64,000 nucleotides of DNA from Cenococcum geophilum 1.58 (taxonomy: Eukaryota; Ascomycota; Dothideomycetes; Gloniales; Gloniaceae). How positions within the stretch are numbered: the stretch's first letter is position 1; each line of letters begins with the position of its first letter. Below are positions 14,696 through 64,000 of the stretch, piece by piece. The stretch is taken from the NCBI GenBank assembly GCA_001692895.1, contig KV748249.1, forward strand, positions 248,001-312,000. The letters run 5' to 3'. The notes beneath the pieces are model-generated. The model did no database searches, was not told where the DNA came from, and worked only from the letters and a program-made list of their open reading frames with translations. The translations under genes were made by a program, and so were the position numbers.

Positions 14696-15685
14696 ACTCA
14701 GCTAATTCTGCCCCAATCGTCTCACTGCTCTCTTCCGTGCTGTAGGTGCACATGTGCAGCATTCGATTGCATTCTCGGCGTTGTAATTGCATCGGCCACC
14801 AGCGAGCATTTACTGCAGCATCTTGCATGTTCTCAACTTTTCAACACAAAATCTTGGATTTGGCCTTTGGCCCTTATTTGCTCAAAAGCGCTGGTCTCTG
14901 TGGATGTCACACCTCCAATTTCATACATTTACATCTTCTCATGTTTTACATCCCTTCTCAACATGCTTCTAAATTTCTTTCTGTATTGCATTTCTTGTTC
15001 CGAGGGAGGCTTTATTACATATTTTGACGGATTTACGACAGCGATGGATGATGTTTTTCATGTCCTCTTTCACTCTTCTTTTAATGCAGGAGTGAGGGAG
15101 AGAGGATAATGGATTGGCGGCGAACAGGCAAGACGGTGTTTGGCAAAGGCATTTTATGGGTCGGGCGGACATTACCATTTTTCTTTTAATGTCGCCAGAC
15201 CTTTTCAGGTGCGCTCGTCTTTGGTCTGCTTGTCGAGGTGGCTAAATAAGGAACATATAGCCTTCACATTTTGTCCCTCAAGCTTTCGGCGTCTGGCATT
15301 TGGTGGCCTCGTTTTTTTCTTCTTCGACGACACAGTTCTCTTGTACTTTTCCTTTCTCTTCATTACGATGGAACGTGCATTACGACGATTGGATGGTTAG
15401 CAGTTTTGGTTGTCATGTCTTGCACGCTCGGATATACTACTCCAGTTGGTAAACTTCTTCTGCTTAATGGCGTTGACGATCCACTGCACCACTGTATCTA
15501 GAGACTAGTTTCTCCTCCAGCCGACCCAAGGTCGTGGCTGGCTTATGAATTACTTTCTATGCTCTTGGAATCTGAAATGTGCGATACTTGCATTGCACGT
15601 TCGTTGGACGTTGGAAAAAGGTTAACCCTGCGCGTTATGCTCACGAGAAGAGACAGGAAGACCCTTGCGGTTGGAGGGGTAGCTA
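14696..15685. other. 3' flank, T-rich, no gene
   Basis: T-rich sequence directly after the stop at 14695, consistent with a long 3' UTR and terminator region. The ORFs are short and composed of Phe/Leu/Ser codons from T-rich DNA. No coding gene is seen. Confidence 0.5.
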
Positions 15686-15880
15686 ATTCTAGGATCGCAT
15701 CGAGTCAACTTTTTACATCTCTCAAACCCCCACTTAGATATACGACATGAATTCTAGGATCGCATCGAGTCAACTTTTTACATCTCTCAAACCCCCACTT
15801 AGATATACGACATGAATTCTAGGATCGCATCGAGTCAACTTTTTACATCTCTCAAACCCCCACTTAGATATACGACATGC
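15686..15880 (+). repeat. Three tandem 65-bp copies ending at an ATG
   Basis: Three head-to-tail copies at 15686-15750, 15751-15815 and 15816-15880, identical except for the last base. Each starts ATTCTAGGATCGCATCGAG and ends with ACGACATGA (ACGACATGC in the third). The ATG of the last copy is the presumptive start codon of the ketopantoate reductase pseudogene, so the immediate 5' leader and start codon have been triplicated. In copies 1 and 2 the ATG opens a 22-codon frame that ends in a TGA overlapping the ATG of the next copy. Confidence 0.95.
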
Positions 15881-21079: not shown

Positions 21080-24000
21080 ATGGCGGGCGCGAGTACAAAT
21101 GACGACCCCTGGTCACTTGCATGTAGCCGCTACATGGAAGACTTGGATGAAGAGGAGAAAAAATTATTTGAGACTGCTTCACTGGACAATCTATTTCGCA
21201 GCGCCAGTGCAGCACAGAAACATCACGAGGAACAGAGCAAGGCCCGAGCTATGTCGAGAAAGCTGGAGCCATTCGTTAGTGCCATATGTCAGTACGGCGA
21301 GGCACTCGACGTATACTCTAATACATACTCCCTTGCCATGGCCCCACTGTGGGGGAGCATCAGGGTGTTGCTACATGTAAAGTCTAATCCCCAGCTAGTT
21401 TCTGCGTTGGCCACTGTACTATATAAGCAGACTCTCATACATGCGGATATCAGATAGCTAAAGCATTCGAAAAATACTTCAAAAACCTCATCAACATGTT
21501 CACACGAATTGGCGATAACCTTCCGAGATGTCAGATCTACCAATCACTTTTCCCTAGCCATAACCGACTGCTGCAAGCGATGTCTGTGGTATACTTAGAC
21601 GTCATACACTTTTGTGTTGAGGCGAAGACGATTTTCCGAAAGTTGAAGAAATCGTCAACTTGTGAGCCCTTTACATCTCAACCTGGGATTCCCGGATTAA
21701 CTTGATACCCTGATAGTTCCCTTTATATTGAAGTCGCTATAGAAAGATTTCAATGGGGAATTTGAAGACAAGACTCTAGCCAAATTTCGTTATGACTTAA
21801 GAAACGTGGAGAAGGAGGTCATGGTGTCATATATGATTGAGGGTTCAAACGATCGAGCCGTAGTCCAAGCTGAGAGAGAGGGAAGGGAGAGGCAGAGAAA
21901 GGGCAAGCTTCCAACGACTATAAGATATGTGCCTATTACTGATCCATCCCGCAGTTAAAAAGAGAAACCTCCTCTTATCAAAGCTATCATCTCTTCCCTA
22001 TGTTAATAAACATATAAAAGAGCGCAAAAGACATCATTCTGGAACAGGCAGGTGGCTGATTAAAACCAATGAATTCAAAGAGTGGATGAGAGGAAACAGC
22101 TCAGCCTGTTTTTGGTGTTATGGAATTCGTAAGTATATCTACATTTGCTCTACTCCGCAATACTGTGGTGTAAGACTTACGCAGAAGCTCTTCTAGCCGG
22201 ATCTGGAAAAACAATTCTAGCGTAAATATTTCCTACCCCTTCTAAACCATGTCAGCAGCTAAATGAAGTTGATACAGGTCTTCCCTCATAGATACGCTTT
22301 CCAGGGAAACTGGCGGGAAGGACATCACTATCCAGGAATTCACCAGTCAGGACATAATAAGCAAAAACATCACTAGGCAAGATACTGGTATCATATTCCA
22401 CTACTGTGATTTCTCTGATCCCAGATCGCTTGAGACACGGAACATTCTCGGAACAATAGCCAGGCAGCTACTCGAGAGAATAAACATTTCAGACGATTTG
22501 GAGCAACAGATGGACCAACTGTACAGAGGAGATACCAGAGCTATGACAGACGACGAATTAGCCGCTATCCTTTTCGCCATCATCAAACATTTCTCCAAAG
22601 TGTATCTCTTCCTTGATGGGTTAGACGAATGCAGAGAAGAAGTGCAGGCCACGGTCTTATCGATTGTGATTCGACTTTCTGAATCTATTCAACCAGCCGT
22701 AAAGATAGTTATATCAAGTCGCGATGAGTATCTCATCTCAAAGTCATTGAAAGAATTTCCTCAGATCCAAATTTCAGCGGAAAACAACTCAGACGATATT
22801 GCTCTTTTCGTAGAGGAGACGGTGAAATCTAATATAAGATCTGGAGCACTGAATATTCAAGATCCCCGTCTGGAATCCGAGGTTATATCAGCACTCACAA
22901 GCCAGGCGCATGGGATGTTCGTCGCCCGCACATACCGTTCTTTGGCTAAGCTTCCATGGCTAACTTATTACATCAGGTTCCTTTGGGTGCATTTCCAACT
23001 TGCCGATCTTTGTGACACAGTCTCCGATTTTGGTATAAGAAAAGTCCTTCAAGACCTTCCAGATGGTATGGCAGCAACATACGCGAGAGCAGTGCAAAAG
23101 ATTGGACAAAATCCTGTCAAGATGAATCTAGCCCAGCAGATTTTTAAGTGGATCGCTTGTGCCAAACGTCCATTGCTCATGGCAGAGCTGGCGGAGGCTA
23201 TTGCGTTTGGGCCATCTGATGCATCTTGGGACTCAACGAAAATTCCTGATGCTTCGCGCTTAATCCGAGCTTGTGGACATCTTGCGGTCCTTGATGATGA
23301 TGGGACCGCTCGATTTGCCCATCATACTGTTCAACAGTTTCTAATTGGACTCCCATTAAAAGACTCAATCTCTGAATTTCACTTCGACCTGTCGAAAGCT
23401 GATGCCAGGGCCGGAGAGATCTGCATCACGTACCTACTATTCTCAGACTTTGAGAAACAAATCACTATATCAAGGCCTAATAATCTCCGACAAGAAAGCA
23501 ATCTTCCCAGTCCAAAAGCTATCGTAGGGAGTGTGATCTCTGGATTAGGCACCAGCTATGCCATACACAGCATGCTAAAACTTTGGGGATATTTAGGTTT
23601 TAGGAACTTGGAATCGCAGCCGCCAACTATTGACGTTACAAAGATTACCGAACCGAAGAAGCTGCCACCGCCGGATCTGGGCAAGAAGTACCGATTGTTA
23701 AACTACGCTCTCGAGAATTGGTTAATGCATACGTCAATGATCGCGGAGGACAACATCTTGTGGAATAAGTTCAAACACCTGGCCATAGATAAATACACCC
23801 CATTTGACATCAGGCCTTGGGGCAACAGCGATGCGTCAAACCGCTTACCCCACATGGGACTATTCCGCTGGGCTGTTGATGTAGGACACGTACCCCTCCT
23901 GAAGCTTTTATCGAAATTACCAAGAGGTCTTGATCTTCATGCCTATTGTCGCCAAATGTCAGAAGAGGGTCAATCTATTGCGACTAATGCATCACTTCGT

Positions 24001-25881
24001 GGTCATAAGAACATGGTTAAATTTCTAGCGAATCAAAACTGTATTGATGCAACAGATGGCAGGCCTCTTCTCTCATTAGCAGCTACTGGGAATGATTCTG
24101 CAGTGCGACTTCTCCTGGAGCTTGAACTCTGCGTAGATGCGAAAATCGAGGCATTGCAGATAGCAACAGGATCTGGGCATGCAGCGGTGATGCATATGCT
24201 GCTGGAGAGTGAACCTCCACTTGATTTACAAGATGGATGGGGCAAATTGGCGTTGGCGGATGCCGCGAAAAGATATTCCGAAGAGGTTCTAGCGGTACTA
24301 CTCGGAAAAGCAGCCAATTTTGAGATTGCTATAATTGATGTTAGAAACATCTGGGGCAATGATGTGCTGCTTGAAGCCGCAAAGCAGGGCATGGATAAGG
24401 TAGTCAAACAGCTGCTAGCGAGGGACGGCGTCGGCCTTGACTCCAAGGACAAGAACGGTCAGACGCCGCTGTCGTGGGCGGCAGAGAAGGGGCATAAGGC
24501 GGTGGTAAAGCAGCTGCTGGCGACAGACGGCGTTGATCCTGACTCTAAGGACGCTCAGTACGGTCGGACGCCGCTGTCGTGGGCGGCAGCGAATGGGTAC
24601 GAGGCGGTGGTAAAGCAGCTACTGGCGACGGACGGCGTCGACCCTAACTCCAAGGACACTGTGAACGGGTGGACACCGCTGTTGTGCGCGGCAGCGGGCG
24701 GGTACGAGGCGGTGGTAAAGCAGCTACTGGCGACGGACGGCGTCGACCCTGACTCCAGGGACAGGAACGGTCAGACGCCGCTGTCATGGGCGGCAGCGAA
24801 CGGGCTCGAGGCGGTGGTAAAGCAGCTACTGGCGACGGACGTCGACCTTGACTCTAAGGACACTGAGTACGGTTGGACGCCGCTGTCGTGGGCGGCAGAG
24901 AAGGGGCACGAGGCGGTGGTGAAGCAGCTGCTGGCGACGGATGGCGTTGACCCTGACTCCAAGGACAAGAACGGTCGGACGCCGCTGTCGTGGGCGGCAG
25001 AGAAGGGGCATAAGGCGGTGGTAAAGCAGCTGCTGGCGACAGACGGCGTTGACCCTGACTCTAAGGACACTCGGTACGGTTGGACGCCACTGTCGTTGGC
25101 GGCAGCGAATGGGTACGAGGCAGTGGTAAAGCAGCTACTGGCGACGGACGGCGTCGACCTTGACTCCAAGGACACTGATAGCGGTCGGACGCCGCTGTCG
25201 TGGGCGGCAGAGAACGGGCACGAGGCGGTGGTGAAGCAGCTGCTAGAGACGGACGGTGTCGACCCTGACTCCAAGGACAAGTACGGTCGGACGCCGCTGT
25301 TGTGGGCGGCAAAGGAGGGGCGCGAGGAGGTGGTAAAGCAGCTGCTGGCGATGGACGGCGTCGACCCTAACTCTGAGGACACCTGGCACTGTCGGACGCC
25401 GCTGTCGTGGGCGGCAGCGATTGGGTACGGGGCAGTGGTAAAGCAGCTGCTGGCGGCGGACGGCGTCAACCCTGACTCGAAGGACAGGTATGGTTGGACG
25501 CCGCTATCATGGGCGGCAGCGAACGGGCACGAGGTGGTGGTGAAGCAACTGCTGGAGACGGACGGCGTCAACCCTGACTCCAAGGACAAGTACGGTCGGA
25601 CGCCGCTGTCGTGGGCGGCAGAGAACGGGCACGAGGCGGTGGTGAAGCAGCTGCTGGAGACGGACGGCGTCGACCCTGACTCTAAGGACAAGAACGGTCG
25701 AACGCCGCTGTCGTGGGCGGCAGAGAAGGGGCGCGAGGCGGTGGTAAATCATCTACTGGCGACAGACGGCGTCGACCTTGACTCTAAGGACACTGAGTAC
25801 GGTTGGACGCCGCTGTCGCGGGCGGTAGAGAATGGGCATGAGGCGGTAGTGAAGCTGTTAGAGTTGTATCATGTATTATAA
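21080..25881 (+). CDS. NACHT-ankyrin NLR-like protein
   Basis: Fungal STAND protein. Exon 1 (21080-21376) and the start of exon 2 (from 21454) encode a DUF7708-type N-terminal domain (EALDVYSNTYSLAMAPLWGS, then RIGDNLPRCQIYQSLFPSH). Between about 21690 and 21960 the frame changes at least twice with no splice solution I could find, so this part may be damaged. The P-loop GIPGSGKTILA is assembled from exon ends 22128, 22197-22221 (25 bases) and 22278, across introns 22129-22196 and 22222-22277. From 22278 one frame runs to 25881 (about 1,200 residues): Walker B-like VYLFLDGLDE near 22600, a winged-helix-like region (LLMAELAEAIAFG, then RFAHHTVQQFLIG) at 23170-23360, and about 14 ankyrin repeats. 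Such proteins are thought to sense non-self ligands through the repeats and trigger cell death or defence. No effector domain beyond the N-terminus is seen. Confidence 0.8.
24370..25865 (+). repeat. About 14 near-identical ankyrin-coding repeats
   Basis: In-frame tandem units of 102 or 105 bases encode the consensus GRTPLSWAAENGHEAVVKQL followed by LATDGVDPDSKD. Copies are nearly identical at the framework positions. They differ mainly just before TPL (KNGR, TEYGW, AQYGR, TWHCR) and after WAA (EKGHK, ANGYE, AGGYE, KEGRE, AIGYG). One copy (about 24840) lacks a single codon. The homogeneity implies recent duplication or gene conversion. Long antisense ORFs over this tract are by-products of the repeats. 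Confidence 0.93.
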
Positions 25882-26619: not shown

Positions 26620-28847
26620 TTAATACATCGGCCGTCCCTCGTCCCAATTCCTAACCTCCTTCATTTCATGCCTGTCTCCTTCCTCCTTTGTCGGACCCAT
26701 CCTAGCAGGGCTGCTCCCCCCAATCATAGACCCGAGACTGAACCTAGAACTCTCACGCCTCCCACTCCTCCCGTCTTCGATCAGCTGGACCGGCCCAACC
26801 CACTCCCACATCCTCGCAACGTCTCCACTACGCCCCTCTCTAACCGCGGCTCGCACGTTGGAGTTATGCTCCACCTTCTTCTGCACCTTCTCCCACAGCC
26901 TCTGCCTCCTCTTCGCCGAAAACTCGTCGCGCAGAATATCATCGCGCAGTTGCGTCATACTGATCCCGACCTCAGGATACGCGCCCGGCTCCTGGACATT
27001 GAGCGCCGCGTGCGTAGCCAGGCGGTCAAGTGCATACTTCGCGAGCTGCTTGGCCCGGTCCTCCGTCTCGCGGCTATATGCGATGGACGAGCGCGTGTAA
27101 AGCCCGCTGGCGCACAGCAGCACTATCCCGATAAGCTCCCAAATATGTCGTTCCAGCGAGAGGCGGAGCCATCGTCGGAAGGCGCATGTGAGAGGGACAC
27201 GGGCGAGCGAGGTGGAGGTGAGAGTACGACGACTGGTGGTTCTGTAGGCGTGGCGACGAATCTGATTAGTTACAGATTCGAGTCAGAAAAGTATTTGCGA
27301 TGGGAGAATTGAAGATGGGTGAGAGAGGAGGGGGAGTGTGAGAATGGAGAAACTTACCCGTCGACGTCGCTGAGGATCTCGTCGCGGCTGAGGATCTCGC
27401 CAATCGCGCCTTTCCATAGGTTTTCGAATTCATCTTGGGACATGCCTTTGCGGCGCTTGGCGGACATTTCTTGCTTCAGCTCTTCTTCGGGCATTTCTAT
27501 GGCAGGTACAGGCTTGCCATTGTCGTCTACCAGGTCACCGCACTCCCATTTGGCTCTCCTATCTCTGAGGATCTCAACGGTCCTATCTGTCACTGCATTT
27601 ATTCTCCGCGCCTTCTCGCTGTCTGGCTCGCATGTTGGAGGAAGCGGGACTATACCACCAAGGGACAGAGGATGCGGTTTGAGAATGAAGTCCGGCTCGC
27701 AGACAGTATGTAGATTTGGGTAACAGTAGGCATGTTGGGGACAAGGTTCGCACCTTGGTAGGATGTCTGAGGCCCACGGCGGAAGATCTATGCCAGCCAG
27801 CGATGTTGGCTCACGCCCCACGCCGCAGTATCCAACTTCTAGCTTTTCCTGCCGCCATGCTGTTCCTAAGCCACCAAGTAAAGCGAGTATGATAGCCCAT
27901 GCCCCAGCTTTTACCACGCCGGTAGATTTAGTCGCTCGTTTGCCCCTTCGCGGCGGTAGGATATCTATTTGACCATTCTTTGCCCGTTCACGAACCAGCT
28001 CGAGTTGCTCTTCCGTCGTAAACTCCTCTCCGGCTTCCACGCCTTCCGGTTCCTCTGAATGTTCTTCCTTCTTGATATGTGCAATTGGCATCTCGAAGGT
28101 TCGTCGTGTAGGAACAACGATGCCATCGTCTTGCTGTTCAACCTTGGGTTGGTCTGTCTTCCTCCTTGCGGCACTGCTTTTACGCTTCTCCATATGTTCC
28201 AGTGGCCCTAACGTTTTACGCCTCCGATCCCTACCAGCTGTCCTGGACTCTGGGACAGGAGAGCTGCCACTCTGAAAGGGATTGTCAGAGGTAAAAGGAC
28301 TCTCCGAATCGTTGCGATGCCAAGCTTCCGGCTCTGATTCTTCGTCCTTGATAGTAGGTGTTATGCTATGCCGCGTTCGCCTTGCGGCAGGTCGTTCATC
28401 GATTTCGGCATCGGAAGCTCTGGCATGCTTAGCAGACGCAGGTTTAGGTGGTGTTTTGCCCCTACTCGCAGGAAGTCGAGCAGTCGGTTGCGCCTCGGGT
28501 TCTTCCTCGGTTACTGCACGTGTAGTTCGTCTTGAGGTTCTTTTTGCGGTGTTCAGAGGAGGCATTGAGACTTCCTCTTCTTCTGCTTCGCCTACCGTGC
28601 TCGCCTGGCTAGACGGTACATCCTGGATGCCTCTCGCAGAGCGTTTGGTCCGCGACTGTGACTTTAATATCTTCGACGCTTGTGGTGCGACGTGCTGGTT
28701 GAACAGCTCAATAAGCTGGGGTTTCTTTGCCGACGAAGGATAAGCAACTTCGTATTGGACGAGGATGGAGCGCAGCTTCGGGACGGTGAGGGATGAAGGG
28801 TCGAAAGACGGGTCAAGATACTCGTGCCCATCCGGGGTTGATGCCAT
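26620..28847 (-). CDS. SRC1: Inner nuclear membrane protein Src1/Heh1 (LEM/HeH family)
   Basis: Two exons on the minus strand, 28847-27358 and 27241-26620, joined across a 116-base GT-AG intron, giving 703 residues. The ATG at 28847 sits in a strong context (CACCATGG). An open extension of 30 residues upstream is probably untranslated. The HeH/LEM-like helix-extension-helix motif lies at residues 17-53 (SLTVPKLRSILVQYEVAYP). A long basic, Ser/Thr-rich nucleoplasmic linker follows. Transmembrane segments lie near 310-332 (KAGAWAIILALLGGLG) and 531-548 (IWELIGIVLLCASGLY), with a Cys-rich lumenal loop between them (CEPCPQHAYCYPNL) and a C-terminal MAN1/Src1-type domain. The family tethers chromatin, rDNA and telomeres to the nuclear envelope and helps nuclear pore quality control. 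The acceptor at 27242 (CTACAG) is chosen over an earlier AG because it alone keeps the C-terminal frame. Intact. Confidence 0.92.
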
Positions 28848-30059
28848 GGTGGCGATAGATGCGCAAACAGCGTCTAGTCCGTCAGATCCGGAATATCGAA
28901 GCTTGTCTTGATCAAATAGTCGTTCGTCTGTTGACAAAGGAAGCCCGGAAGCTGGAGAGACTATTTCATGAGTTAGTCTTAAGTTTTAGAGGTGGCGAGC
29001 ATAGTAGTAACGCATTGGAGAGCTGGTAGAGCAGGCGACGACCTCATGTTTTCGCGGGACAAACAGACCTTGGCGTTCTTGGCACTTCTCCGCCAACCAA
29101 GAGAATCACTCACGCCACTCACCATTCCAACCATCCGTAGTCTCAAACTCGATATCGAGATGTGTATGGGATATTAGTACTTGCTTAGGACATCCCCTAG
29201 TTTAATATAAAGACAATCTCTTCATTATGCACAATTGACTAAGGGGTAGTAATGTTTAAAACATTGTTTCTTATTCATCAGAATGTCCTGTAAATCTCTA
29301 ATGAATTGTAACATCTGACCATTCGCGTGAGGCAATGTTGTACTGTTCTAGGTATTTTCTTTTGGAGAAAACATTTTTGGTCGGTGTCTTCAAACCAGTA
29401 AGGTCCATTTGCTTTGCAGAAGATCTCGGAAGGCTGCGAGATGGTGTGACAACTTATTCAGTGGTGAGATGTTTGATAGGTGCATGAGGCCGGTTGCTAC
29501 CGTCTCGGCTGGGAGTATACTGTGAAACCGGTGTGTCTTGCGAAAGGACACTGGTGAATGTGCTTTCATGCATGGAGTCTCTTTATGCGCGGAGAGGATC
29601 GCATATTGCACAGACAGGAGTTGTTCACGTGTGGATTTGTCAAGGTGCTGCCCGGTCCTGGCTACCCTTAACTACTTAGTTGAATGCCATTGCTCAGCGC
29701 AGTCCAAATTAGAACTTTGTCCTCTCATAGACGATTTCTTAAGCAATACCAGTTATTCGGCAGTTATTGACTTCCAATCAAAAAAATACGTCAGGCTTAA
29801 AAATAGAATAAGATGTTTTGTAAACGACATATTTGACTCGGGTATTTGTGCTATCTAGAAGTGCTTTTGATATGAACTTTTCGTACAAGTTTGTTTGTCG
29901 ACATCTTGGTGTATACCGTAAGGGAGTGGACCTTTGGTGGGGCAAATAAACCATTTATGGTGAAACCGGTCTAATTTATGGGCCGCAATACACCGAAAGG
30001 TCACGGGAATTTTGAGCCAATTCAACACTAGCCGCGGAACACGCCACTTCCTAGACCCA
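28848..30059. other. Intergenic, no gene seen
   Basis: Upstream region of Src1. Short ORFs only (up to 106 codons) without protein-like character. From about 29930 the sequence becomes repeat-like (GGTGAAACCGGTCTAATTTATG), approaching the transposon relic that starts near 30060. Confidence 0.5.
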
Positions 30060-30314: not shown

Positions 30315-30663
30315 TATTCCTACATTAAGGCGTCTTAGTTGCTNTAGTATAGTCCTATATTAAGACGTCTCGGTCACTGTAGTATAGTCCTATATTAAGG
30401 CGTCTCGGTCAATACAGTGCAGTCCTATATTAAGACGTTTCGGTTACTGTAGTGCAGTCATACATTAAGGCGTCTTGGTCACTGCAGTGCAGTCCTATAT
30501 CAAGACGTCTCGGTCACTAGTACAGTCCTATATTGAGACGTCTTGGTTACTGCAGTGCAGTCGTACATTAAGGCGTCTTAGTTACTGCAGTGCAATTGTA
30601 TATAGAGGCGTCTTAGTCACCATAGTGCAGTTATATATTAAGGCGTCTTAGTCACTGCAGTAA
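30315..30663. repeat. 35-bp tandem array, about 10 copies
   Basis: Head-to-tail degenerate copies of a 35-base unit of the form GTCCTATATTAAGACGTCTC followed by GGTCACTGTAGTGCA. Variation is mainly C/T and G/A, as expected from RIP. Located inside the end of the Crypton-like element. There are no unique spacers, so it is not CRISPR-like. Confidence 0.9.
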
Positions 30664-45756: not shown

Positions 45757-46023
45757 TGTTACGGCGCTGGTGGAAACTGGTGGATTGTGGCTGATGGATA
45801 TTGGTGGATATCGGTGGATTATGGCGGACAGTCGCAGACAGTTTCACACAGTTTTAGATAATTGCTGTCACGTAACCAGAGGATTATATATAACGCCAAG
45901 CGGCGCCACCCTCCATCTCCTCTCCTTTCTCTAGCTTTGGATCCTCGTTTATAGACTACTAATCGTATAGGCTTGCGCGTCCCTCTTGCTATACTTATGC
46001 CTTAATTAACTAAGTCGCTAATA
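45757..46023 (+). repeat. 5' LTR of the gypsy fossil
   Basis: Starts TGTTACGGCGCTGG after TTAGG and ends GCTAATA. Matches the 3' LTR at 60961-61244 and the LTR at 62436-62659. This copy is less AT-converted than the 3' copy. Confidence 0.88.
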
Positions 46024-47040
46024 TTATCTAAAGCTTAAACCNCCCTTTTTTTTTTTTAAAAAAAAGGAACTTAAATATATTTATAGGACTATAAATAAAA
46101 ATAAAATATAGAAGTAGACCTAAAAACTACTACCAGAACTTAAAAAATAGAAAAGAATAATAAGACCTATAAAATAAATATAGACTAAAACCCCTATAGA
46201 ATCCTACTAGAAGTTACCCTAATAACTATACTACTATACTAAGAAATATAGTAGCCGGTAAAGTAGCTATAGGACCCTTAAATACCTCTAATAGTAAAAT
46301 AGTAACTAACTTAAACTCCTAAGAGGAGCTTATAGTAGCTAATACTAAAATTAAATAACTTTAAAAGCTACTTAAAGCTAAAGAACCCCCTATACCTAGT
46401 AAAGAGTTATTAGATACCTAGAGACTTACTATAGTCCTTAAAACCCTAGCCTAATATATAGTATTAGTATTATTATAGTCTATAAAGGTTATAAACCTCT
46501 TATTACTTATAGATAGAACTAACCCTATATTTAATAATTAGAAGCTTTAACTATAGGATAAGCTTAAAGTTAATACAGACTACTTCCCTACTACTTAGGC
46601 TAAAATAGCTTATATCTTTAGACGTACCTACGTCTATAATACGCATAGGACTTAGTAAATCCCTTCCTCTTTAGAGAAGAGATAATTATTTACCTATCTT
46701 CTATTTATAAGGACCCCTTTAAAGTTTAAAACGCCTAACTTAATTATAAAAGCCTAAATATAAAAACAATAGAGATCTTTTTAGATTTTTAGACCCGCTT
46801 TCTATACCTAGCTAGCTAGGCTTAAATTTCCTAAAAAGATTTAATACTAAACCTATTTAATAAGCTTACCCTAAACCTATAGTAAGCCGTATTACTAGTT
46901 TTTACTACTATATAGACGCTAAAGGAACTTATAAACTAGTGCTTAGCTATTAACTAAGGCCTCTATTAAACTAAGGCATGCGCTAAATAATATAAGGCTA
47001 GAAACCCTTTAAATTAAACTATAAGCAATATAAGAATAGC

Positions 47041-47219
47041 TGTCGGGAATGAGGCAAGCGGTTGTCACGTGTCGTCACGTGTCGCCGCGGCACTAGCGTG
47101 GTGAGGAACCTTAGGTTCCTTACCCACCCCCTAATTCTTAATAATAAGCTTTATTAACTAACATTACTGTAACCCTACTCGAGTAGTCGTTATTAGTAAG
47201 TTACCCTATATAACTAATA
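47041..47219 (+). repeat. 5' LTR of the copia fossil
   Basis: TGTCGGGAATGAGGCAAGCG at the start. Pairs with the LTR at 52964-53142, of equal length. Confidence 0.9.
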
Positions 47220-50200
47220 CTAATTAGTAGTTAAATATACAGTTAACTATAGAGCAGCTAGGTTTTTAAATAGAAGAGACAGTCTTGTATAGGGGTGCTA
47301 TATACGCTTATATGGAATGGATCCCGGCGATACTATACTACCTTAGACTTGCGGAAAACTAGTAATAGAAGTGTTACTAAGTACTAGGAGATACTAAGTT
47401 GCGTCTATTACGTAGAACAATTACGTTTACGAAGATTTAGTTAAGTACTTTAGGTTAGAAGTGTTACTAAACCTAAGGTCCTAAGTCAACGTCTAAAACG
47501 CGTTAAATAACATCTTAAATTGCCTACCTTTAGATAGTAAACCTACGAGATCCTATAAAACCGAAAATCCTACCTACCTTTAATATATAATACCTCGTTA
47601 ATTCTACCTACTATAGTATTAACCTATCCGAAGAAGTATGAGAAAGATATTAACCTGGAGATATAGGATAGAGCTATAACTAACTTTATAACCGCTAAGT
47701 AATAGGACCTAAATAGATTTTTAGTATACCGTATAGAACACTATAAAGATAGTAAATATAATAATACCGCGCTATAGTATTATATAAAGGAGGACTTTAT
47801 TAGATAGATAAAGGAAATATAGGTTCCTATAAATAAAGATATTATATGGGACTTCCGTAACTTCCTTTAGGAGTATAAAGTATTTGTCCCTATAGATAGG
47901 GGTAGTATTAGGGATAATATTTAGGAACACGTTATTAATGTAAAGAAAGAGCATAAATGGACTCTATAAGAGATTAAGTACTAACTACGCACTATAAAGA
48001 AGCTTAAATTACGATGGAACCTAAGTAATATACTACTAGAGACGCGTTCTAACTCTATTACTCTAGGTATAAGTTCTAACGTTCTATATCTATTGCCTCC
48101 ACCTCTGTCTTTAACTCCCTTATATTAACTAGCTTAACCCACAGCCTTAATTAATAACCCCTAATAAGCGCAAGATCCCCTTACTTCGCGGTTTAATAAC
48201 CTTTAAACTCCGCCGACTAGATTTACGTTACTATTATAACCTGCAATATAATATAGCCAAATACTAATTAGAGGCACCTTAAAAATGCTTATAGAGCTTA
48301 TAAAGCTCTATTTGGAATAGGAGAAGAAGTTTAGCGGAGAACTATATAATATCCTTAATTTAAAGTTACGTATCTTCTACGACTATTACTAGAAGGTTGG
48401 ACTAGAACCCAATTAATACCATATTACTTATTTAGTTATGCTTAAGGGCCAAGCTAGTACCTTCTATTATAATTGTTTGGTAGGAAAAGGATATGATTTT
48501 AACCGAATAATATATAAAATAAGATGCCACTTTAAAATAGAGGAGAATAAGCAGTAGTATATATTGGAGTAAAGAGAGACTACCTTCCTAAGAATTATTG
48601 CTATAAACCTAGGTACCTCTTAACTTAATTATCTTTAAAAGCTCTTTAATTAACTCTAGATAATTTAGCGTGGTTTATCTAAATTATATTAAGAGGACTT
48701 TAGCCTACGTAATTAAGTTATTAGCGTATACTAAGGTATTAAAGAATATAACCTTGCTCTCTTTAACCCTATAAGTACTTATAAAGGAATATATACTTAA
48801 TTAAGATCCTCTATTAGCACTGCCCTACGCTCTTAAGAAGTATAGTAATTTAACGCCTAACTCTAACCTACTTTAATCAACCCGGCTAACTAATATAATT
48901 ATAACTAGACTAATTAAATATATAGTAGTCGTAATAGGGGATACAGTAGAGGGTACGATTAATGTTAACTATAAAGTAATTATGGAGGTCCTTATAGAGG
49001 TTCATTTTGCAATAATTGGTAGAAGAAATGCTACATTTATAAGAAGCCAAATTGCTAGTTAACTAGACACCCCCTTAATAGACAAAAGGAGGTATATAAT
49101 AAGTTTTGCTAGAGCGCACAAAATGTTAGAAACTAAGAAGTTATTATAGCCTACTTCTAAAGCTTCCTGGTTTAATATAAAGGCGAAGAAGATCTTAAGG
49201 GTAAGATTAACGAGGCTAAATAGCTCCTTATAGATATGGAAATTAAGGACTACTCTCCTAACTAATACTTTACCGAGTATGGTAAGGTAAATAGTACATA
49301 AACTATTGCTGTCCTTAATAACTAATCTACGCTCTATTCTGTTATAAGGTTAAATATCTTTAATAAGCTAAAGGAAAGTTCCGCGTTCTCCTTTAACGAC
49401 AGATACTCGGCGAACGTCTTTTATAGTATTATGCTAGATATTAAAGCCGCAGGAGTATCTATAGTAAGAGAACCTTAAGTCCGAGCTCTTTAGCAGCTTA
49501 ATAGTTCTATTTAGATTAACCAATTAATAGTAGGCTAATATACAATTCGCTTTAGTAAGGGTACTATAATCTCTCTTAGTATAATTAAGGTCCAAACCCT
49601 ATTAGGATATATTACTTTCTATATTATTCCCATAAATACCCTATTCCTATTCTGCATCCAAGATATAGATAAATTAGGTATTAAGCTTAATAACCTTAAG
49701 AATATGCTTGTTTAGGGAGATAATTAAGTGCCCGTTATACGCAAGTAGGGTTACCCTTAGTTGCTCCTTTAATAGCTAGAAAGGAGCGTTGCTTAAAGTT
49801 ACTTAACTAAGTTAGAGCTATGTTAACTATATTATCGTTTTAGCCACCTATTTATTTACCAACTACTTAGGATTCTTTAACGAGTAGGTTATAAAGTTAA
49901 GGTTAAGGCGATTAAACATCTTATAAAGTACTGCTATTACTGCTAAATAAACTAGAAGTCCCCTAGCCGATTTAAGTTTACCCTTAAAGATAACTATAAC
50001 TTTAACTTCTATATCATTATAGATGTTATATATTTTAGCGGCAAGCCAGTACTCTAAGTTGTTAACTTCTTAACCTCCTTCTAAGCCGCACGCTTTTTAA
50101 AAGATATATTAGCTAGGAACGCATAGGATACTCTTTAATTATGCTAGATTAATATCTACCTAGGACCCCCTAATTAAATTATTTATAATATAGGAAAGAA

Positions 50201-52963
50201 CTTCTTATCTACGGAGTTTTGATAATAGGTAAAGGCAATAACAATTAAGGTTAAGGAAGTCCCCATTAAGGCATATAATAGTATTAGAAAGGTAAAATAA
50301 TACTATATACTATTACGCCGCGTATATAAGATTATTTCTTTAAAACTAAAGGGTGCTAGTAAAGAGCTTATCCTATAGATGGCTATTAAGGCTATTAACG
50401 ATACCGCTGGCCCAGATAGGCTCGTACCTACGTTACTAGTCTTTAGCGCCTACCCTTAAATAACTAACGATTCTTTACTATCTCCCTCTATTATATAATA
50501 AGCTAAGGCGATTTATAAGGTAATAAAGGAGGTATAACGTTTCTACGCTACGCGCTAGGTTAACAACGCACTAGGAATAAGAAATAGCCTAAATACCTTA
50601 ACTACACTTAATCTACCACTCTAATCTAAGGTACGCGTATGGCGTAAAAAGGGAGGATAGTTAAGCCTATATAAACTTATTATAATTAATGGTTAGACTT
50701 ACACTTTTTAGATACCCTATAGACCTACTTAATTCCGTTTAACTATTATTAAGCCTTACTATAAAAATAATAGTTCTGAGCCTTTATAGGATACTCCAGA
50801 AGATACCTTAGGAGATGCCCCAGAGGAGAACCACGATTAATATGCCCTAGAAGGCGACTACGACCCTAATATAACTATAGTAGATACGCCGCAACCACGA
50901 CGCGGTAAAGGTCGCCTAAAAGGATTACAAAACCGCTAACACCTTATCGATTTTAAAAAGCAACTTATTACCGCTATCGAGAATAGAGTCGAGCTATTAA
51001 TAGCCTTTATAACAGCTAAAGAGAAGGCTAACTTTAAGCTTATAAAATAGCTCCGAAAGGAAGGCCGTATTATAACTCTAGGAGCTCCTTTCTAAGCATC
51101 TGATAAGTAGGAGATTGACGGTCTTATTATAAGAGGAGTCTTTAAGTTTAAGAAGTATAACCCTGCTAAGTTCGATAGGGTTTATATATTTAGGTTAAGA
51201 ATAGTTAATAAGATTAAAGGCAAAGCTACTAATACCCTATTCGAGAAGTTAAGGCTAGTTATTTAAGGTTATAACAACAACAATAAGGAAGTAATTCTTA
51301 TATAATCCCCTATAATTTAACGAGCTAGTTAGCAAGTTATTATTACGCTAGCTCCCTCCTTAATAAAGAATGGAATAGTGGTTTATTTATAAGATATTAC
51401 CTAGGCCTATACCCAATTAGAGACACGCCTTTAGCACTTAATACTAGCATACCTTCTAGAGTAAATTTGCCACCAATATCCTAAAGATACGATTATAGTT
51501 ATACTTAAGCCACTATATGGAATCGTAGAGGTAGGAACTTATTAGTAGGCTACTTATAGCAAGCACCATAAAGAGAAGCTTTTAATAACTACTTCTATAT
51601 TCGATCCCTGCTTCCTTATTATAGCTATAGGAACTCTATTTAGAATCGTTAGCATATAAACGGACGATATAATTATCTTAGGAGACAACTAATTCTTAGC
51701 TCTTAAAGAAGATAAGCTAGTAAAGGTAAATCTTATAATAAAGCCAAAGGAAAGACTTAATTTAATAACACTATTACTCTTTAATAGATGCATTATTTCC
51801 CTAAATAAGGATTCTATTACCCTATGCTAGAAAGGTTAAGGTAAGAAGATTAACGTTATTAACGTTAATTTTTTAAAGTAAGGATATGTAGAGCAACGCG
51901 CTTATAGAGCTTATATAGCTTCTATCTATTAACCTAAAGCTTCCTTTAATCTCTCTATTACCGCTTAATACTAAGAACCAACTAAGGAGGATATCCTTGC
52001 CCTAAATAAGCGTCTTTTCTGGTAAAGGAGCCATCTTAATTAAGGACTACTCTATATACCTATTAACCTTCCTACCGCTAAGCTTTTTATATTTATTAAT
52101 AGATCATTTATAAATAATAAAGATTTTAGCTTTTAGCTAGGATATAAAATTATTATCGCAAACAAATCTACCGGAGAGAGTAACTTTATAATCTACAGTA
52201 ATCTTATCTATTAGAGCTTAACTAAGAGTAAATACATTACTTAAAGCGTTCTAGTATTAGAGATATATGGAATAGTTAGCGAAGTTAATATAGTAATTGC
52301 AATTAGAACTACCTTAAAGATAATTACAGATTAACTTAAACTCCCTATTATCCCTACAATTGTATACACCGACTTATATTCCCTCTATAAGTATTTAATT
52401 AAGCTTAGTACTACAAAGGAGAAGCGCCTTATAATTAATATTATGGCACTTCGGCAGTCCTATAAGCGTTAAAAACTCTTTAAAATCTAATAGATTAATA
52501 GCTAAGATAACCCAGTAGATATAATAACAAAGGCAAACCCAAATAAGGCACTAGAGACGTTTGTTAATATAAATACTCTATATATACGAGTTAAAGGTTA
52601 GGTTAAAAGGGAAATTTAGAGAAGTTAAGATCTTACGGAACTTTAACCGCCGGTTAAAGTTGTCTAATTAGTAAGATGTTTGCCAAGAGCGCCACGCCTA
52701 ATTAATTTAGGTAGTGGTGTAAAGTTCTACCGACGCTATTTGTTAAGCTAGCTAATTAGGATTTTCTATCCCCGGGATAGAAAATCGCCATTAGCTCGGC
52801 TAAGAGCGGTAAGCAGAACTAACATCTTTATATAAACCCGTATATCTACCTACGCTATCCCTTCCCCTTTATTTCTTCTTCTTCTTTTTCTTAGCTTTAT
52901 ATCTTTATATATTAGCAATCTATAAGTATATATAAATAGTAACTATAAAAGAAGAGTTGCTAG

Positions 52964-53142
52964 TGTTGAGAATAAGGCAAGCAGTTGTTACGTATTGTTA
53001 CGTATTGCCACGGCACTAGCGTAGTAAGGAACCTTAGGTTCCTTACCTACCCCCTAATTCTTAACAACAAGCTTTATTAACCAACATCACTGTAACCCTA
53101 CTCGAGTAGTCGTTATTGGTAAGTCACCCTATATGACCAATA
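52964..53142 (+). repeat. 3' LTR of the copia fossil
   Basis: TGTTGAGAATAAGGCAAGCA at the start. Differs from the 5' LTR mostly by C-to-T and G-to-A changes. Confidence 0.9.
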
Positions 53143-53929
53143 ATAGTCTATAATGCCCTAGCATAATTAGTAAACCCTATAGCACTACCTATATAACCTA
53201 CTGCTAATTTAGCAGCTAGCTATACGGCCAGTCCTACTATAGGTTTAGTAAATGCTCAGCCTATATATAGGCCCTTAGTAATTAAGGAGCTTACTTCTCT
53301 TATAGTTAAAAAGGCTATTATATAAAGGGTTGCCTAATAAATATAAAAGCGGATAAGGTCCTATTAATCTAAAAAAATAGTATAAAGTTAAAAAAAGAGG
53401 AACCCTAGAGAAAGACTCCTTTTTAGGGTTAAAAGGGATTAATATATTATATATTAACCTAGGTTAGCAAGTTAGTAAAAGAAGCCTTACTATCCCTTAT
53501 ACTTTATTCCGCAATAAATATTAAGTTTTAATCTCTACTTTAGCTAACTCTAGAGTAAATACCTTTGCCTTAATAGATACCTAATATATTATAAAGCTAG
53601 CTAACTTTTTAAATACACCTATTAAAGAACTGCTTAAACTAATTCTTATTTATAGGTATAATAGGCGGATAAAACTACCTATTATAACTATCTTATAGAT
53701 TTACCTCTATATTAACGGACAAAGGTAGTATAATATCCCTTTCCTTATTACGGACCTAGAAAGTTATAATATAATCTTAAAAAGAAAATAGCTAGCCTAT
53801 TTAGGCTTATAGCTTAATATATAAAGTAGGCGGCTTATTTAGCCTAAAACCTTACCCCTAACCCCTTCTTTTATAATATCGGGAAAATATTCGCAGGATA
53901 AGATTTAAGTAGACTTTGGTTTTCGCGTT

Positions 53930-54250
53930 TCGCGTAATTAACATGCAATTTGACCAACTTAACACGCAATTAACCAACTTAACACGCAGTTGACCTACTT
54001 AATATGCAATTTAACCAACTTAACACGCAGTTAACNTACTTAACATGCAATTTAACTAACTTAACACGCAGTTAACCTACTTAATATACAATTTAACTAA
54101 CTTAATACGCAGTTAATCTACTTAATATGCAATTTAACTAACTTAATATATAGTTGACCTACTTAATATACAATTTAACTAACTTAATACGTAGTTAACC
54201 TACTTAACATATAATTTAACTAACTCAATATGCAGTTAACCTACTTAATA
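53930..54250. repeat. 41-bp tandem array, 7-8 copies
   Basis: Unit of the form ACGCAGTTGACCTACTTAAT then ATGCAATTTAACCAACTTAAC, strongly RIP-varied. It is the first of four different arrays stacked between the protease and reverse transcriptase parts of the gypsy fossil. Confidence 0.88.
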
Positions 54251-54376
54251 ACTTTAAAAGCTAACTGTATATTTCTTAACGTACGATTAAGGTAAAGTTA
54301 TATACTATATATTTAACTATTATATATAATCTTATACAATCTTATACAATCTCATACAATCTTATAGTCTTATTAC

Positions 54377-54770
54377 TTGGAGGCTCTGCACAAGGCTCTA
54401 CACAAAGCTCTACACGAAGCTCTGCGTACAGAGGCTCTGCACGAAGCTCTGTGTATAGAGGCTCTGCACAAAGCTCTGCACGAAGCTTCGCATAAGGCTC
54501 TACACGAGGCTCTACACGAAGCTCTGCGTACAGAGGCTCTGCACGAAGCTCTGCACGAAGCTCTGCACGAGGGTCTGCGCGAAGCTCTACACGAAGCTCT
54601 GCACGAGGGTCTGCGCGAGGGTCTGCGCGAGGGTCTGCGCGAAGCTCTGCGTATAGAGGCTCTGCACGAGGCTCTGCGAGAAGCTCTGCGTATAGAGGCT
54701 CTGCACGAGGCTCTGCGCGAAGCTCTGCGTACAGAGGCTCTACACGAAGCTCTGCATTGGGTCCCCGCTA
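54377..54770. repeat. 12-bp based GCTCTGCACGAA tandem array
   Basis: Units of AAGCTCTGCACG and AGGCTCTGCGTACAG in a higher-order pattern. It happens to leave one frame open for 160 codons (EALHEALR repeats), which is an artefact of a unit length divisible by three. Shares words with the array at 300-480. Confidence 0.9.
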
Positions 54771-54869
54771 TATTCCCAATAGCCTCTATACGTGCCTCTA
54801 CCCTATATAGCCACCTTATTTTTTACCCTTCTTTCCTTTTTTATATCCTCCCTACCTAGGGAGGCACCA

Positions 54870-55500
54870 GAACGGCAGCTAGTAGAGGACTGTTACTAGA
54901 ACTAGACGACCGTCGCTAGAACTAAATAACCGTTACTAGAACTAGACGACTATTACTAGCTAGACGACCGTCGCTAGAACCAGATAACCATTGCTAAAGC
55001 TAGATAATTATTACCAGAACTAGACAACCGTCGCTAGCTAGACAACTGTTACCAGAACTAGATAACTATCGCTAGCTAGACGACTATTACTAGAACTAGA
55101 CGACTGTCGCCAGAACTAGACAACTGTCGCTAGCTAGATAACTGTTACTAAAACTAGACAACCGTCGCCAGAACTAGACGACCGTCACCAGCCAGACGAC
55201 CGTTACCAGAACCAGACGACCGTTGCCAGAGCTAGACGACCGTCGCCAGCTAGACGACCGTTACCAGAACCAGACGACCGTCGCTAGCCAGATGACCGTC
55301 GCCAGAACCAGACGACTGTCGCTAGAATTAGACGACCATCGCCAGCTAGACGACCGTTACCAGAACTAGACGACCGTTGCTAGAACCAGACGACCGTTAC
55401 TAGAACTAGACGACCGTTGCTAGAGCTAGACGACTATTGCTAAAACTAAACGACCGTCGCCAGAACCAGACAACCGTTGCTAGAGCTAGATAATAATAAC
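54870..55500. repeat. About 20-bp CTAGACGACCGTCGC tandem array
   Basis: Roughly 30 irregular copies of ACTAGACGACCGTCGCTAGA-like units of 14-20 bases with C/T and G/A variation. The third array in the block. Confidence 0.88.
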
Positions 55501-55544
55501 TAGCTAGCCAACACTATAAACGATTTAATCCATTAATTGAATTA

Positions 55545-55930
55545 AGGTAGTATAGACAGGTAGGCATAAATAGGTAAATGCTAATGGGTAGGTAGATGTA
55601 GATAGGTAGGTAGATATAAACAGGTAAGTAGATATAGATAGGTAGGTAAATATAGATAGGTAAGTAGATGTAGATAGGTAAGTAGATATAGATAGGTAGG
55701 TAGATACTAATAGGTAGGTAGATATAGATAGGTAAGTAGATATAGACAAGTAGATATAAATAGGTAGGTAAATGTAGATAGGTAAGTAGATATAGATAAG
55801 TAAGTAGATGCTAATGGGTAGGTAAATGTAGATAGGTAAGCAAATGCAGATAGGTAGATATAGATAGGTAGGCGATGTAAATAGGCAGGCGATGTAGGTA
55901 GGTAGGTAAGTTAATAGGTAGATAGGTAAA
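55545..55930. repeat. About 18-bp GATAGGTAAGTAGATATA tandem array
   Basis: About 20 copies of TAGATAGGTAAGTAGATA-like units with 4-base GGTA/AGTA sub-periodicity. The fourth array in the block. A minus-strand 74-codon ORF over it is a by-product. Confidence 0.88.
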
Positions 55931-56597
55931 AGAGAACCATTGCTATATTATATTAAATTATCTAAAATAATAATATTTATTTTTGCTAGCCTTATAAATA
56001 GCTTTAAAATAGCTTTTATTTATTTAAAATATATTATTAGTATAAAAGAGGTAAATATAATTATGGTTGCTAAATACGCAGATTGCTGGCAGGTTGCGCG
56101 TAGATTGCGCGTAGGTTGCGCGTAGGCTGCGCGTAGGCTGCGTGTTAAAAAAACACGATATAGGCTAGTCGGTCGAGTTGCTAAATGCCCTTAACTGCGC
56201 GCCAATTGCGTTAACCACCAACCATTGAGGCCATTGAAAGGGTACCATATTTTGCCGATGAAAAGAAATTAATATTATAATAGAAAACCTTATACGGCCC
56301 TAGATTAATACTATTTACTAGGTAGATACTATATATAGGGACTAGGCCTTTAAGAAAGATATATAGCTTAACCTATAACAGATCCGTATACTACGCCGTC
56401 CCTAAACTAGTTATACTACGCCACCTATATTAGAGACCTAAGAAGCTAGTAATAACCTAGCTAAGTTAACTATAAAGGACTTAGGCCCTATATAGCTATA
56501 AAGGAAAGCTAGAAATATTAGACGCTATACTAAACTAATAGATAGAAAAGATAACTTATAGAAAATAAAATATAAGCTAAGAAAGATTATAAACCCT

Positions 56598-57467
56598 TGT
56601 CACGGATTCCGACCGTAGCACCGCCAAGGGCTCGCCTAGCGAGCCTTGGCACCCACAGTATATAGAGCCACGGTGCCTTCGCACCTCTTTGCACCTTCGT
56701 GCAATATCCTGTCGTNTANATAGCCAATNCTACNACGTTCCCAGAGCCTCCTGACCGCGCTCCGTGACATTATATTGCACCCAACGACTCGCATAGGCCT
56801 GCCTACCGCCTATGGAGCCGGTACGACGACTTTGACCCATGCCGACCGTTGGACGATGATTCGATACCCTTAATTCTACCTCTCAATTTCTACCGCATCA
56901 ACGTCTCTGCCTACTACTGCCTCTATGATTCTACCTGCCTGCGTACACGACTACGACAATGCCTATCCAATAGCAGCATCTCCGCTTTCCCGCTGTGTGT
57001 TTACGACCGAGCAAGACCAGCACCTCTGCTGTCCCGCTGTGAGGATACTACTTCGACCTAGGACTGTAAATAGTTATCTACGACTTAACGAGCTTGGAAG
57101 AACAGTTATAAGATACCTTAGATATTGAGTCATTAATCTACCTATCGAATCGTCATTACCCTCGTTAACCGTTCGAGCTATATTCTGCCAGCGAACGCCT
57201 CTGATAAGCTCTGCCAGTCACTAGTAAGCACCACAGCACCGTATGGAGGGAGGATCTGCCTTAAGGGACTTTGGCTTTGTATAAGGGGGGGGTAGTGTTA
57301 CGGATTCCGACCGTAGCACCGCTAAGGGCTCGCCTAGCGAGCCTTGGCACCCACAGTATATAGAGCCACGGTGCCTTTGCACCTCTTTGCACCTTCGTGC
57401 AATATCCTGTCGTGTATATAGCCAATGCTACGACGTTCCCAGAGCCTCCTGACCGCGCTCCGTGACA
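56598..57467 (+). mobile_element. 870-bp TRIM-type non-autonomous LTR element
   Basis: Two 172-base LTRs (56598-56769 and 57296-57467) start TGT(C/T)ACGG and end CCGTGACA, flanked by the 5-base duplication ACCCT (56593-56597 and 57468-57472). The 526-base interior has no retroelement protein domains and ends in a purine tract (AAGGGGGGGG-like) just before the 3' LTR. The LTRs are nearly identical apart from ambiguous bases, and the GC content is much higher than in the surrounding gypsy fossil, so it inserted late. It looks whole as a non-coding element. Confidence 0.88.
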
Positions 57468-60400: not shown

Positions 60401-60960
60401 CTATTGGCGAGCTCTTATTAATAACTATAGGACATATTTTACCAGGCGAAGGGATAAGCTAAACTATTAAATAGTAGGACCATATAAGGTTCTTAAGAAG
60501 ATAGGTAACTTATATAAAGTAAAGCTCCTAAATTTAATTAAAGTTCACCCTATTTTCTCTCTGGATAAACTATAAAAAGCTATAAATAACCTATTACCTA
60601 GATAAAAGAATAAACTTCCCCTACCGATTTAAGTTAATAGTAACGATGAATAGGAAATTAAAGAAATACTGGCCTATAAGCTTATAAGGGGAACGTTACA
60701 ATATTATATTAGTTAGAAAGGGTACAACCTAAACCCTACTTAGTACCCTATATAGAACTTTATAAGTAGTCCCTATAAGCTTTAAAAGTTTTATAGTTAT
60801 TACCCTAATAAACCCAGACCCCTAAAGTACCTTAATAACTAAATAAAGTATTAAAATAGTAAAGACAATAAGCTAGCTATTAAGTATAAAGATAAAAATA
60901 CCTTATAGGTATAATACGGGCGTATAAAGCCTAAGGGCAGGCTTTTTAGATAGGGGGTAA

Positions 60961-61244
60961 TATTATAGCGCTAGTGGAAACTAGTAGATTGTGGCTAATA
61001 GATATTAGTAAATATTAGTAGATTATAGCGGATAGTTATAAATAGTTATAAATAGTCGCAGATAGTTTTATATAGTTTTAGATAATTGCTATTATAATTA
61101 GAGGATTATATATAACGCTAAGCGGCGCTACCCTCCGTCTCCTTTTCTTTTTCTAGCTTTAGATCCTTATTTATAAAATACTAATTATATAGGCTTACGC
61201 GCCCTCTTACTATACTTATGCCTTAATTAACTAAGTCGCTAATA
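60961..61244 (+). repeat. 3' LTR of the gypsy fossil
   Basis: Strongly AT-converted partner of 45757-46023, ending GCTAATA, with the TTAGG duplication directly after it. Confidence 0.87.
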
Positions 61245-61249
61245 TTAGG

Positions 61250-63486: not shown

Positions 63487-64000
63487 TGTAACGGGACTAG
63501 CCCAGTTACAGTAGGAATGTCTCGGTGAAACACTCGACAGACGAATTCCGACGCTTTAACCGAATTCTGCTAGATTAATCGAATTACCGAAGTCCGTTAA
63601 AGACCGCGTGCGTATATGCGCACGTATTAACCACCAAGCCCCTAACTATTTAATTATATAATTCTCTTATTATTCCCTTCTCTTCTTTATATAACGTCTT
63701 ATTCTTAGCAAGAGCTATATACCCTTAGATTTAGATAGAATTTATATTATTCCTTTAAATCTTCCTAAAGTCTCTCCGCGCCCTTATATTACGTTGCGTT
63801 AATACTAATACCCTTAAAATAGCAAACGAACTTAAATCCGCTATAATAACTATTATAGCCCTAGTTAGGGAATAAATAACTATAATATAACAGTCCTTTA
63901 TGAATGCCTTAGCCTAGCAATAAACTATACTAGAAGCTTAGCATTAGTAATTGATTAAAGCAATATATAAAGAACTCTACGACGTCAAAGTACTTGCGTT
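63487..64000 (+). mobile_element. Start of another LTR-type element, continues past the window
   Basis: Sequence beginning TGTAACGGGACTAGCCCAGT interrupts the gypsy gag. TG start, AT-rich leader-like interior and position suggest an LTR element that inserted into the gypsy copy. Only about 514 bases are visible, so family and state cannot be judged. Confidence 0.5.

Follow-up and report, generated by a model that had tools for sequence, protein, structure and literature searches.

A tandem ankyrin array with clustered hypervariable positions at the 3' end of an NLR-type receptor gene of Cenococcum geophilum

Introduction

The closest described systems are NLR receptors of Podospora. Dyrka et al. 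(2014) reported repeat number polymorphism in the ankyrin (ANK) repeats of Podospora NLRs, together with five ANK positions showing signs of positive selection, all but one of which lie on the inner helices and the hairpin/loop (PMC4986451). In the cited text of that paper, the criteria for fungal NLRs with highly conserved repeats include an internal conservation of >85% over at least 100 amino acids (PMC4986451). In the WD40 repeats of Podospora, turnover occurs mostly within a gene and occasionally between genes (PMC12222747). Some members of the NWD family have RIP-damaged bodies with nearly intact repeats, and the authors suggested exchange with live genes (PMC1805685).

Here, we analyzed a stretch of 64,000 nucleotides of Cenococcum geophilum 1.58, called the window below. 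An NLR-type receptor gene of the fungal NACHT kind lies at about 21080-25881 (+), and an ankyrin array forms its 3' end. Two class features of fungal NLRs with highly conserved repeats were found, a nucleotide-binding domain and C-terminal superstructure-forming repeats. Relative to the >85% conservation figure, the units of the window are 85% identical in DNA and 26.1 of 35 columns in protein, as counted here. Like the conserved-ANK NLRs of Podospora anserina, the gene combines NACHT with tandem ANK repeats, differs in repeat number (here against P0001, which may be a strain or a sister species), and has a few variable or selected positions that, one exception aside, lie on the concave surface. 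It differs from them by another N-terminal domain, by units less alike than theirs, and by six variable columns that were replicated in 18 arrays of one genome. A comparison of silent and replacement spectra is what this study adds to that system. With the het-d/het-e/NWD family, the shared features are within-array concerted evolution, rarer between-gene exchange and hypervariable surface codons and, further, background RIP and dead members with nearly intact repeats (PMC1805685; PMC12222747). That family has WD40 propellers and a known partner, HET-C (PMC1805685; PMC12222747), whereas the window has an ankyrin solenoid and a putative partner. A WD40 sensor, as expected of the het-d/het-e family, was not what Pfam found in the window, where the sensor is ankyrin. 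Among the titles and abstract openings listed from a mainly open literature, no DARPin or transition/transversion (ts/tv) comparison was found for fungal NLR ankyrin repeats.

Results

The gene structure was examined by comparison with P0003 (labelled Geoglossum umbratile), residues 1-900 of which match window positions 21080-24111 in five pieces. The features are as follows.

21080..21406 (+): exon 1, N-terminal domain, DUF7708-like at best; 69.7% identity to P0003 residues 1-109; 3' end uncertain
21451..21660 (+): exon 2; 72.9% identity to P0003 residues 110-179
21716..21901 (+): exon 3, with an in-frame stop flanked by aligned sequence; 54.8% identity to P0003 residues 180-240
21740-21742 (+): in-frame stop TAG within exon 3, from the P0003 alignment
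21954..22128 (+): exon 4, ending just 5' of the P-loop; 65.5% identity to P0003 residues 241-298, match to 22127; splice end placed by eye
22197..22221 (+): putative short exon carrying the Walker A motif, GIPGSGKT once spliced; placed by eye against P0003
22278..24399 (+): remaining NACHT-type NTPase, then winged-helix domain, linker and a degenerate stretch resembling ankyrin; from Pfam, and 52.9% identical to P0003 as far as 24111
24400..25845 (+): ankyrin array, 14 full units of 34/35 amino acids, six hypervariable codons in each; from repeat, Pfam, codon and model evidence
25846..25881 (+): terminal half-unit VVKLLELYHVL and stop; identical in P0001

The open frame at 22273-25881 (+) encodes NPHP3_N, a winged helix, a linker, the 14 full units and the half-unit. 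Pfam recognized NPHP3_N (E 7.7e-15, above the cut-off) and GPIID_WHD (E 4.6e-8) in it; the NACHT model itself reached 13.7 bits, under its cut-off, in this frame, which lacks the P-loop exon. The Walker A motif GIPGSGKT would be formed on removal of two introns whose ends were set by eye. With NPHP3_N, the winged-helix domain and this spliced motif, the description of the gene as NLR-like in the original prediction was borne out. Positions 22917-22976 are probably an in-frame intron missing from P0003, again with ends set by eye. For exon 1, Pfam gave no domain at E 1e-4, and DUF7708 scored 13.5 bits, below the cut-off of 25; the precomputed Pfam list of P0003 includes DUF7708 (PF24809).

The original prediction also called the gene live. 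The 1202-codon frame 3' of the stop is open, but for this allele "live" is doubtful because the P0003-aligned exon 3 carries the in-frame stop at 21740-21742. As judged by eye, the 55-base gap before exon 3 resembles a GT..AG intron and the 52-base gap after it a GC..AG intron, with a one-base shift. The TAG may reflect real damage to the gene, a splice that was not recognised or an error in base calling, the last being possible because ambiguous bases (N) are present in the window. The copy could thus be a dead one whose array has stayed open and homogeneous through exchange with live arrays, as has been proposed for the nwdp genes of Podospora. A stop inside an otherwise alignable exon, with a probable GC splice donor adjoining it, speaks for this, as do the Podospora genes in which the body is mutated and the repeats are nearly intact (PMC1805685). 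The long open frame after the stop, the lack of a RIP-like composition in the N-terminal region (TpA/ApT 0.85) and the chance of a base error at the stop itself speak against it, and we regard a pseudogene as possible but doubtful.

Next, the array itself was examined. Tandem Repeats Finder reported 14.0 copies of period 102 at 24409-25855 (score 1844), and Pfam gave Ank_2 with E 1.2e-137. The array had been predicted at 24370..25865 with about 14 tandem ankyrin units; this extent was right, with 14 full units (24400-25845) followed by the half-unit. The units had also been called homogenised and almost identical. Homogenisation was in fact moderate and this wording was too strong: the mean pairwise DNA identity was 85% (0.765-0.941), with a silent diversity of about 0.2 per site, and the protein identity averaged 26.1 of 35 columns, matched gaps counted. 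An AlphaFold2 model of the array was run on the single sequence. The best of five models showed a continuous helix-loop-helix ankyrin solenoid with a mean pLDDT of 92.2; one other reached 88.0, and three were poor at 37.7-48.2. The top Foldseek entries for the model were DARPins and ankyrins. Of these, 4rlv (TMq 0.87) and 6mol (0.74) superposed best, and several DARPin rows in the list had low TM scores.

To locate the variation within the unit, the 14 units of the window were codon-aligned, and the patch columns were defined as ankyrin positions 2, 2' (an extra residue beside 2), 3, 5, 13 and 14. In these columns pN was 0.395 and pS 0.280, against a pN of 0.077 and a pS of 0.214 in the remaining ones, giving pN/pS ratios of 1.4 (bootstrap 0.91-2.2) and 0.36 (0.25-0.51), respectively. 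The amino acid entropy of the six patch columns far exceeded that of six random columns (P = 1.5e-5). This test was not blind, the patches having been named in the original prediction, and alternative position sets, including one with DARPin positions 26 and 33, which lie outside the main set, likewise passed it (P = 1e-5 to 7e-4). The two variable patches are therefore real, clustered and replacement-rich, and the variation is neither even over the unit nor mostly silent at the patches. Diversifying selection had been claimed as well; with a patch ratio of 1.4 and an interval of 0.91-2.2, positive selection on the window array taken alone is not proven.

The pattern was replicated in other arrays of the genome (described below). 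When the 35 columns were ranked by mean variability over 18 arrays, the top six were exactly positions 2, 2', 3, 5, 13 and 14; the same positions led in the 17 arrays without the window and in P0001 alone. Each patch column was among the top eight in only 10 to 16 of the 18 arrays, and none in all of them. The patch pN/pS exceeded the framework pN/pS in 18/18 arrays, and pN exceeded pS at the patches in 12/18 only. Position 16 (H/Y/R/L) was variable in the window (entropy 1.69) and outside the first six over all arrays. In the window, position 26 varied somewhat (entropy 1.09); positions 26 and 33 ranked 22 and 17 of 35 in the 17 other arrays.

Apart from 2', the patch set corresponds to positions 2, 3, 5, 13 and 14, which we take to be the DARPin design positions; this design set reportedly originated with Binz in 2003. 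The array and the DARPins share a fixed framework with diversity at these five positions; the repeats of 6mol, a DARPin of solved structure, vary there and also at 26 and 33. Unlike DARPins, the array is natural, has units of 34/35 amino acids with an extra hairpin residue, and does not have 26 and 33 among its most variable positions. In DARPins, the binding surface is formed by the library diversity (PMC8683736) and is the concave surface (PMC8229355).

We then compared the array with that of P0001, as protein. The source of P0001 is labelled jgi and is probably a metagenome; it may represent another strain or a sister species. The bodies share 569/630 residues (90%), and the arrays contain 11 full units in P0001 versus 14 in the window. 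No unit was identical between the two. The best colinear match of the arrays was no better than with the inner units shuffled (P = 0.43), and units were as similar between the arrays (26.3/35) as within each (26.1/35). Only one six-residue contact word was common to both, out of 13 distinct words in the window and 11 in P0001. Thus, the whole array has turned over on a 90% identical body. Since the predicted contact residues vary and no unit is shared with P0001, the array has the look of a recognition surface that changes fast, of a kind already described in fungi. A change of repeat number and order among strains had been proposed as a check; both differ in P0001, which may be a sister species instead of a strain. 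The claim that specificity can change by repeat shuffling agrees with this turnover and with the variation at the predicted binding surface, while the binding of a ligand is itself presumed.

Repeat number and order would be unreal if the assembly had collapsed or scrambled the units. Podospora repeats of such a kind are recoverable from long reads and not from Illumina assemblies (PMC12222747), and N letters occur in the window. An artefact is nevertheless extremely unlikely: the reading frame is unbroken across 14/14 units, framework and patch positions recur in P0001, which comes from another data source, and the patch positions recur in 17 more arrays.

To obtain the arrays of the same genome (177 Mb), it was searched at the DNA level with the window array; this gave 69 matches, and 40/52 candidates were scored. 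Twenty stretches from the top of the match list, that is, paralogs picked for array similarity, made up 21 arrays with the window. The 18 with at least 8 usable units were analyzed, L040, L047 and L048 being dropped. Frameworks were array-specific: QLLATDGVDPDSKD in the window, LLLETGKVDVESKD in L036 and LLLARNDVEADSKD in L033, with LLLETGKVDVDSKD common to several. Silent divergence of the framework was 0.21 within and 0.43 between arrays (the latter from 40 sampled units per unit), and it was lower within in 18/18. The closest unit belonged to the same array for 222/241 units and to another array for 19/241. The predicted signature of concerted evolution, known from fungal NLRs, was thus found. 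Only one cross-array pair (L031/L036) reached 95% framework identity. Neighbouring units were barely closer than distant ones (0.207 versus 0.236 over 18 arrays); similarity showed no trend with distance along the window array and no useful gradient overall. Internal stops or units in more than one frame were seen in L030, L033, L035, L036, L037, L039, L040, L041, L045 and L048; some of these irregular arrays may be broken, or else a stretch may include a second array, introns or a chance match farther away.

Receptors with unrelated bodies can carry similar arrays. Silent identity between arrays exceeded the codon-usage expectation in 153/153 pairs (mean 0.62 versus 0.47); we interpret this as a common DNA ancestry younger than the one the bodies have. 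An alignable body was available for 19 genes (L034 and L045 gave none), and array DNA similarity was uncorrelated with body similarity among them (rho 0.11, P = 0.14; 171 pairs). In the 15 closest array pairs, the bodies were 21-29% identical in 14 and 66% in one; the frameworks of L041 and L042, for example, are 89% identical in DNA and their bodies 27%. No body fragment more than 30% identical to the window's body was found among the 18 compared from the 20 fetched paralogs. N-terminal domains were taken from 29 of the paralog frames, a same-strand upstream frame being assumed to be part of the gene. PNP_UDP_1 was found upstream of arrays L031, L032, L039, L041, L042 and L044, and NACHT_N upstream of L030 and L037. 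In addition, a HET-domain frame lies at L045 4234-4821 (-), upstream of an array of the same type, and is a candidate incompatibility gene.

Orthologous bodies elsewhere (P0002, P0003, P0004, P0007 and P0008; 53-57% identity) carry arrays with a framework identity to the window of 0.41-0.55, based on 2 to 12 units each, compared with 0.60-0.75 for the paralogs in the window's own genome. P0011 and P0012, with 64% identical bodies, have arrays at 0.74 and 0.73, and P0010 is at 0.65; P0005, P0006 and P0009 had too few units for the comparison. The arrays of P0011 and P0012 are as near to the window's as those of its own paralogs; therefore, arrays do not simply track the genome.

Over 18 arrays, the frequency of silent C-to-T change against the array consensus was 0.136 at CpA, 0.090 at CpG, 0.031 at CpC and 0.021 at CpT. 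Silent change is RIP-like plus CpG decay, and the high value at CpA suggests that the arrays are exposed to a mutator resembling RIP. The context-specific change was used in place of the RIP index of the array (TpA/ApT 2.47) because codon composition dominates the latter. About 20 kb from the gene, an AT-rich block at 46001-64000 is strongly RIP-like (TpA/ApT 1.6-2.0, GC 0.31-0.41).

The ts/tv ratio was 6.7 for fourfold silent changes, 3.8 for framework replacements and 1.33 for patch replacements. These were counted over unit pairs, which are not independent, so the per-array sign is the safer figure: the transition fraction was lower at the patches in 17/18 arrays, the exception being L035. 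A transition-only mutator is therefore unlikely to have produced the patch diversity directly, and we infer that this diversity consists of old variants, retained and then reshuffled. RIP hypermutation as the author of the patches, although proposed as an extra mutation source by Paoletti in 2007 (PMC1805685) and in keeping with the CpA bias of silent change, is very unlikely: RIP makes no transversions, in which the patch replacements are rich.

The same spectrum bears on relaxed constraint, under which the six positions would vary through a low importance for folding, in the absence of diversifying selection. These positions are weakly conserved in ankyrins generally, the patch pN/pS of the window does not significantly exceed 1, and just 12 of the 18 arrays have a patch pN greater than pS. 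Replacements under relaxed constraint should follow the mutation spectrum, but the patches show 1.33 where silent sites show 6.7, with fewer transitions in 17 of the 18 arrays; moreover, positions 26 and 33, variable in DARPins, hold only low ranks in the 17 other arrays. We consider relaxed constraint unlikely.

The arrays also stand out by their GC content at third codon positions (GC3), which was 0.79 in the window array versus 0.45 in the body. Array GC3 exceeded that of the upstream frame in 20/21 loci with enough upstream frame, namely in 17/17 of the window's type (L041 only marginally) and in 3/4 others. Over all 33 arrays (L054 dropped for too few units and L006, with one unit, left out), GC3 rose with unit identity (rho 0.61, P = 1.6e-4), a contrast of this type against the rest, since rho was -0.11 for the 12 arrays outside the type and 0.28 (P = 0.22) for the 21 within it. 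High GC3 thus looks like a mark of the array type and not a general result of homogenisation. GC-biased gene conversion as its source was rejected, there being no rise outside the type, a weak one within it, and a homogenised array of low GC3, L055. L055 (G000:C32:650700-652700) is a strongly homogenised 17-unit ankyrin array with 84% DNA identity and a GC3 of only 0.44.

Discussion

Our reading is that the array serves an NLR-like receptor of this fungus as its sensor, marked by repeat turnover, variation of contact residues and movement of arrays between bodies; we give it a probability of roughly 0.8. The clustering and the kind of the variation, the turnover relative to P0001 and the decoupling of arrays from bodies were observed. 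Together, they support for this gene the regime described for Podospora NLRs, repeat turnover with variation confined to the predicted binding surface.

According to this model, the units would fold as an ankyrin solenoid, with purifying selection and recombination among units of the same array preserving its framework. The hairpin residues 2, 2', 3 and 5 and the residues 13 and 14 at the end of the inner helix would contact the target. Unequal crossing-over or conversion may insert, delete and reorder units; the string of six-residue contact words would thereby change on a constant receptor body and framework. On a longer time scale, such arrays may also have moved between NLR genes with unrelated bodies. 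Target binding would lead to oligomerisation through NACHT and, in the manner of heterokaryon incompatibility, to a response by the N-terminal effector. Ligand binding, signalling and the working of this allele are all presumed here.

More tentatively, a single GC-rich type of ankyrin sensor may form a common pool in this genome and be fitted to unrelated NLR bodies, whose effectors are PNP_UDP_1, HET, NACHT_N and the N-terminal domain seen in the window. The six contact codons could then make up a standing library, rich in transversions, that balancing selection maintains in the face of a RIP-like mutator producing only transitions. If so, this fungus would re-use and reshuffle old contact residues instead of hypermutating new ones.

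These results extend to another fungus the model of non-self receptors developed in Podospora, and they place the hypervariable codons, in 18 arrays of one genome, on positions that are varied in designed ankyrin binders. The comparison of silent with replacement spectra offers a means of weighing RIP against the retention of old variants as the source of receptor diversity.

Around the gene, the window has three further features. The neighbour at 27354-28985 (-) encodes a Src1/Man1-type protein with HeH and MSC domains, whose nearest named relative is in Lepidopterella palustris (74%). About 10 copies of a 35-base tandem unit occur at 30318-30661 with 79% matches and some ambiguous bases in the stretch, and a 65-base unit is present in three perfect copies at 15685-15879.
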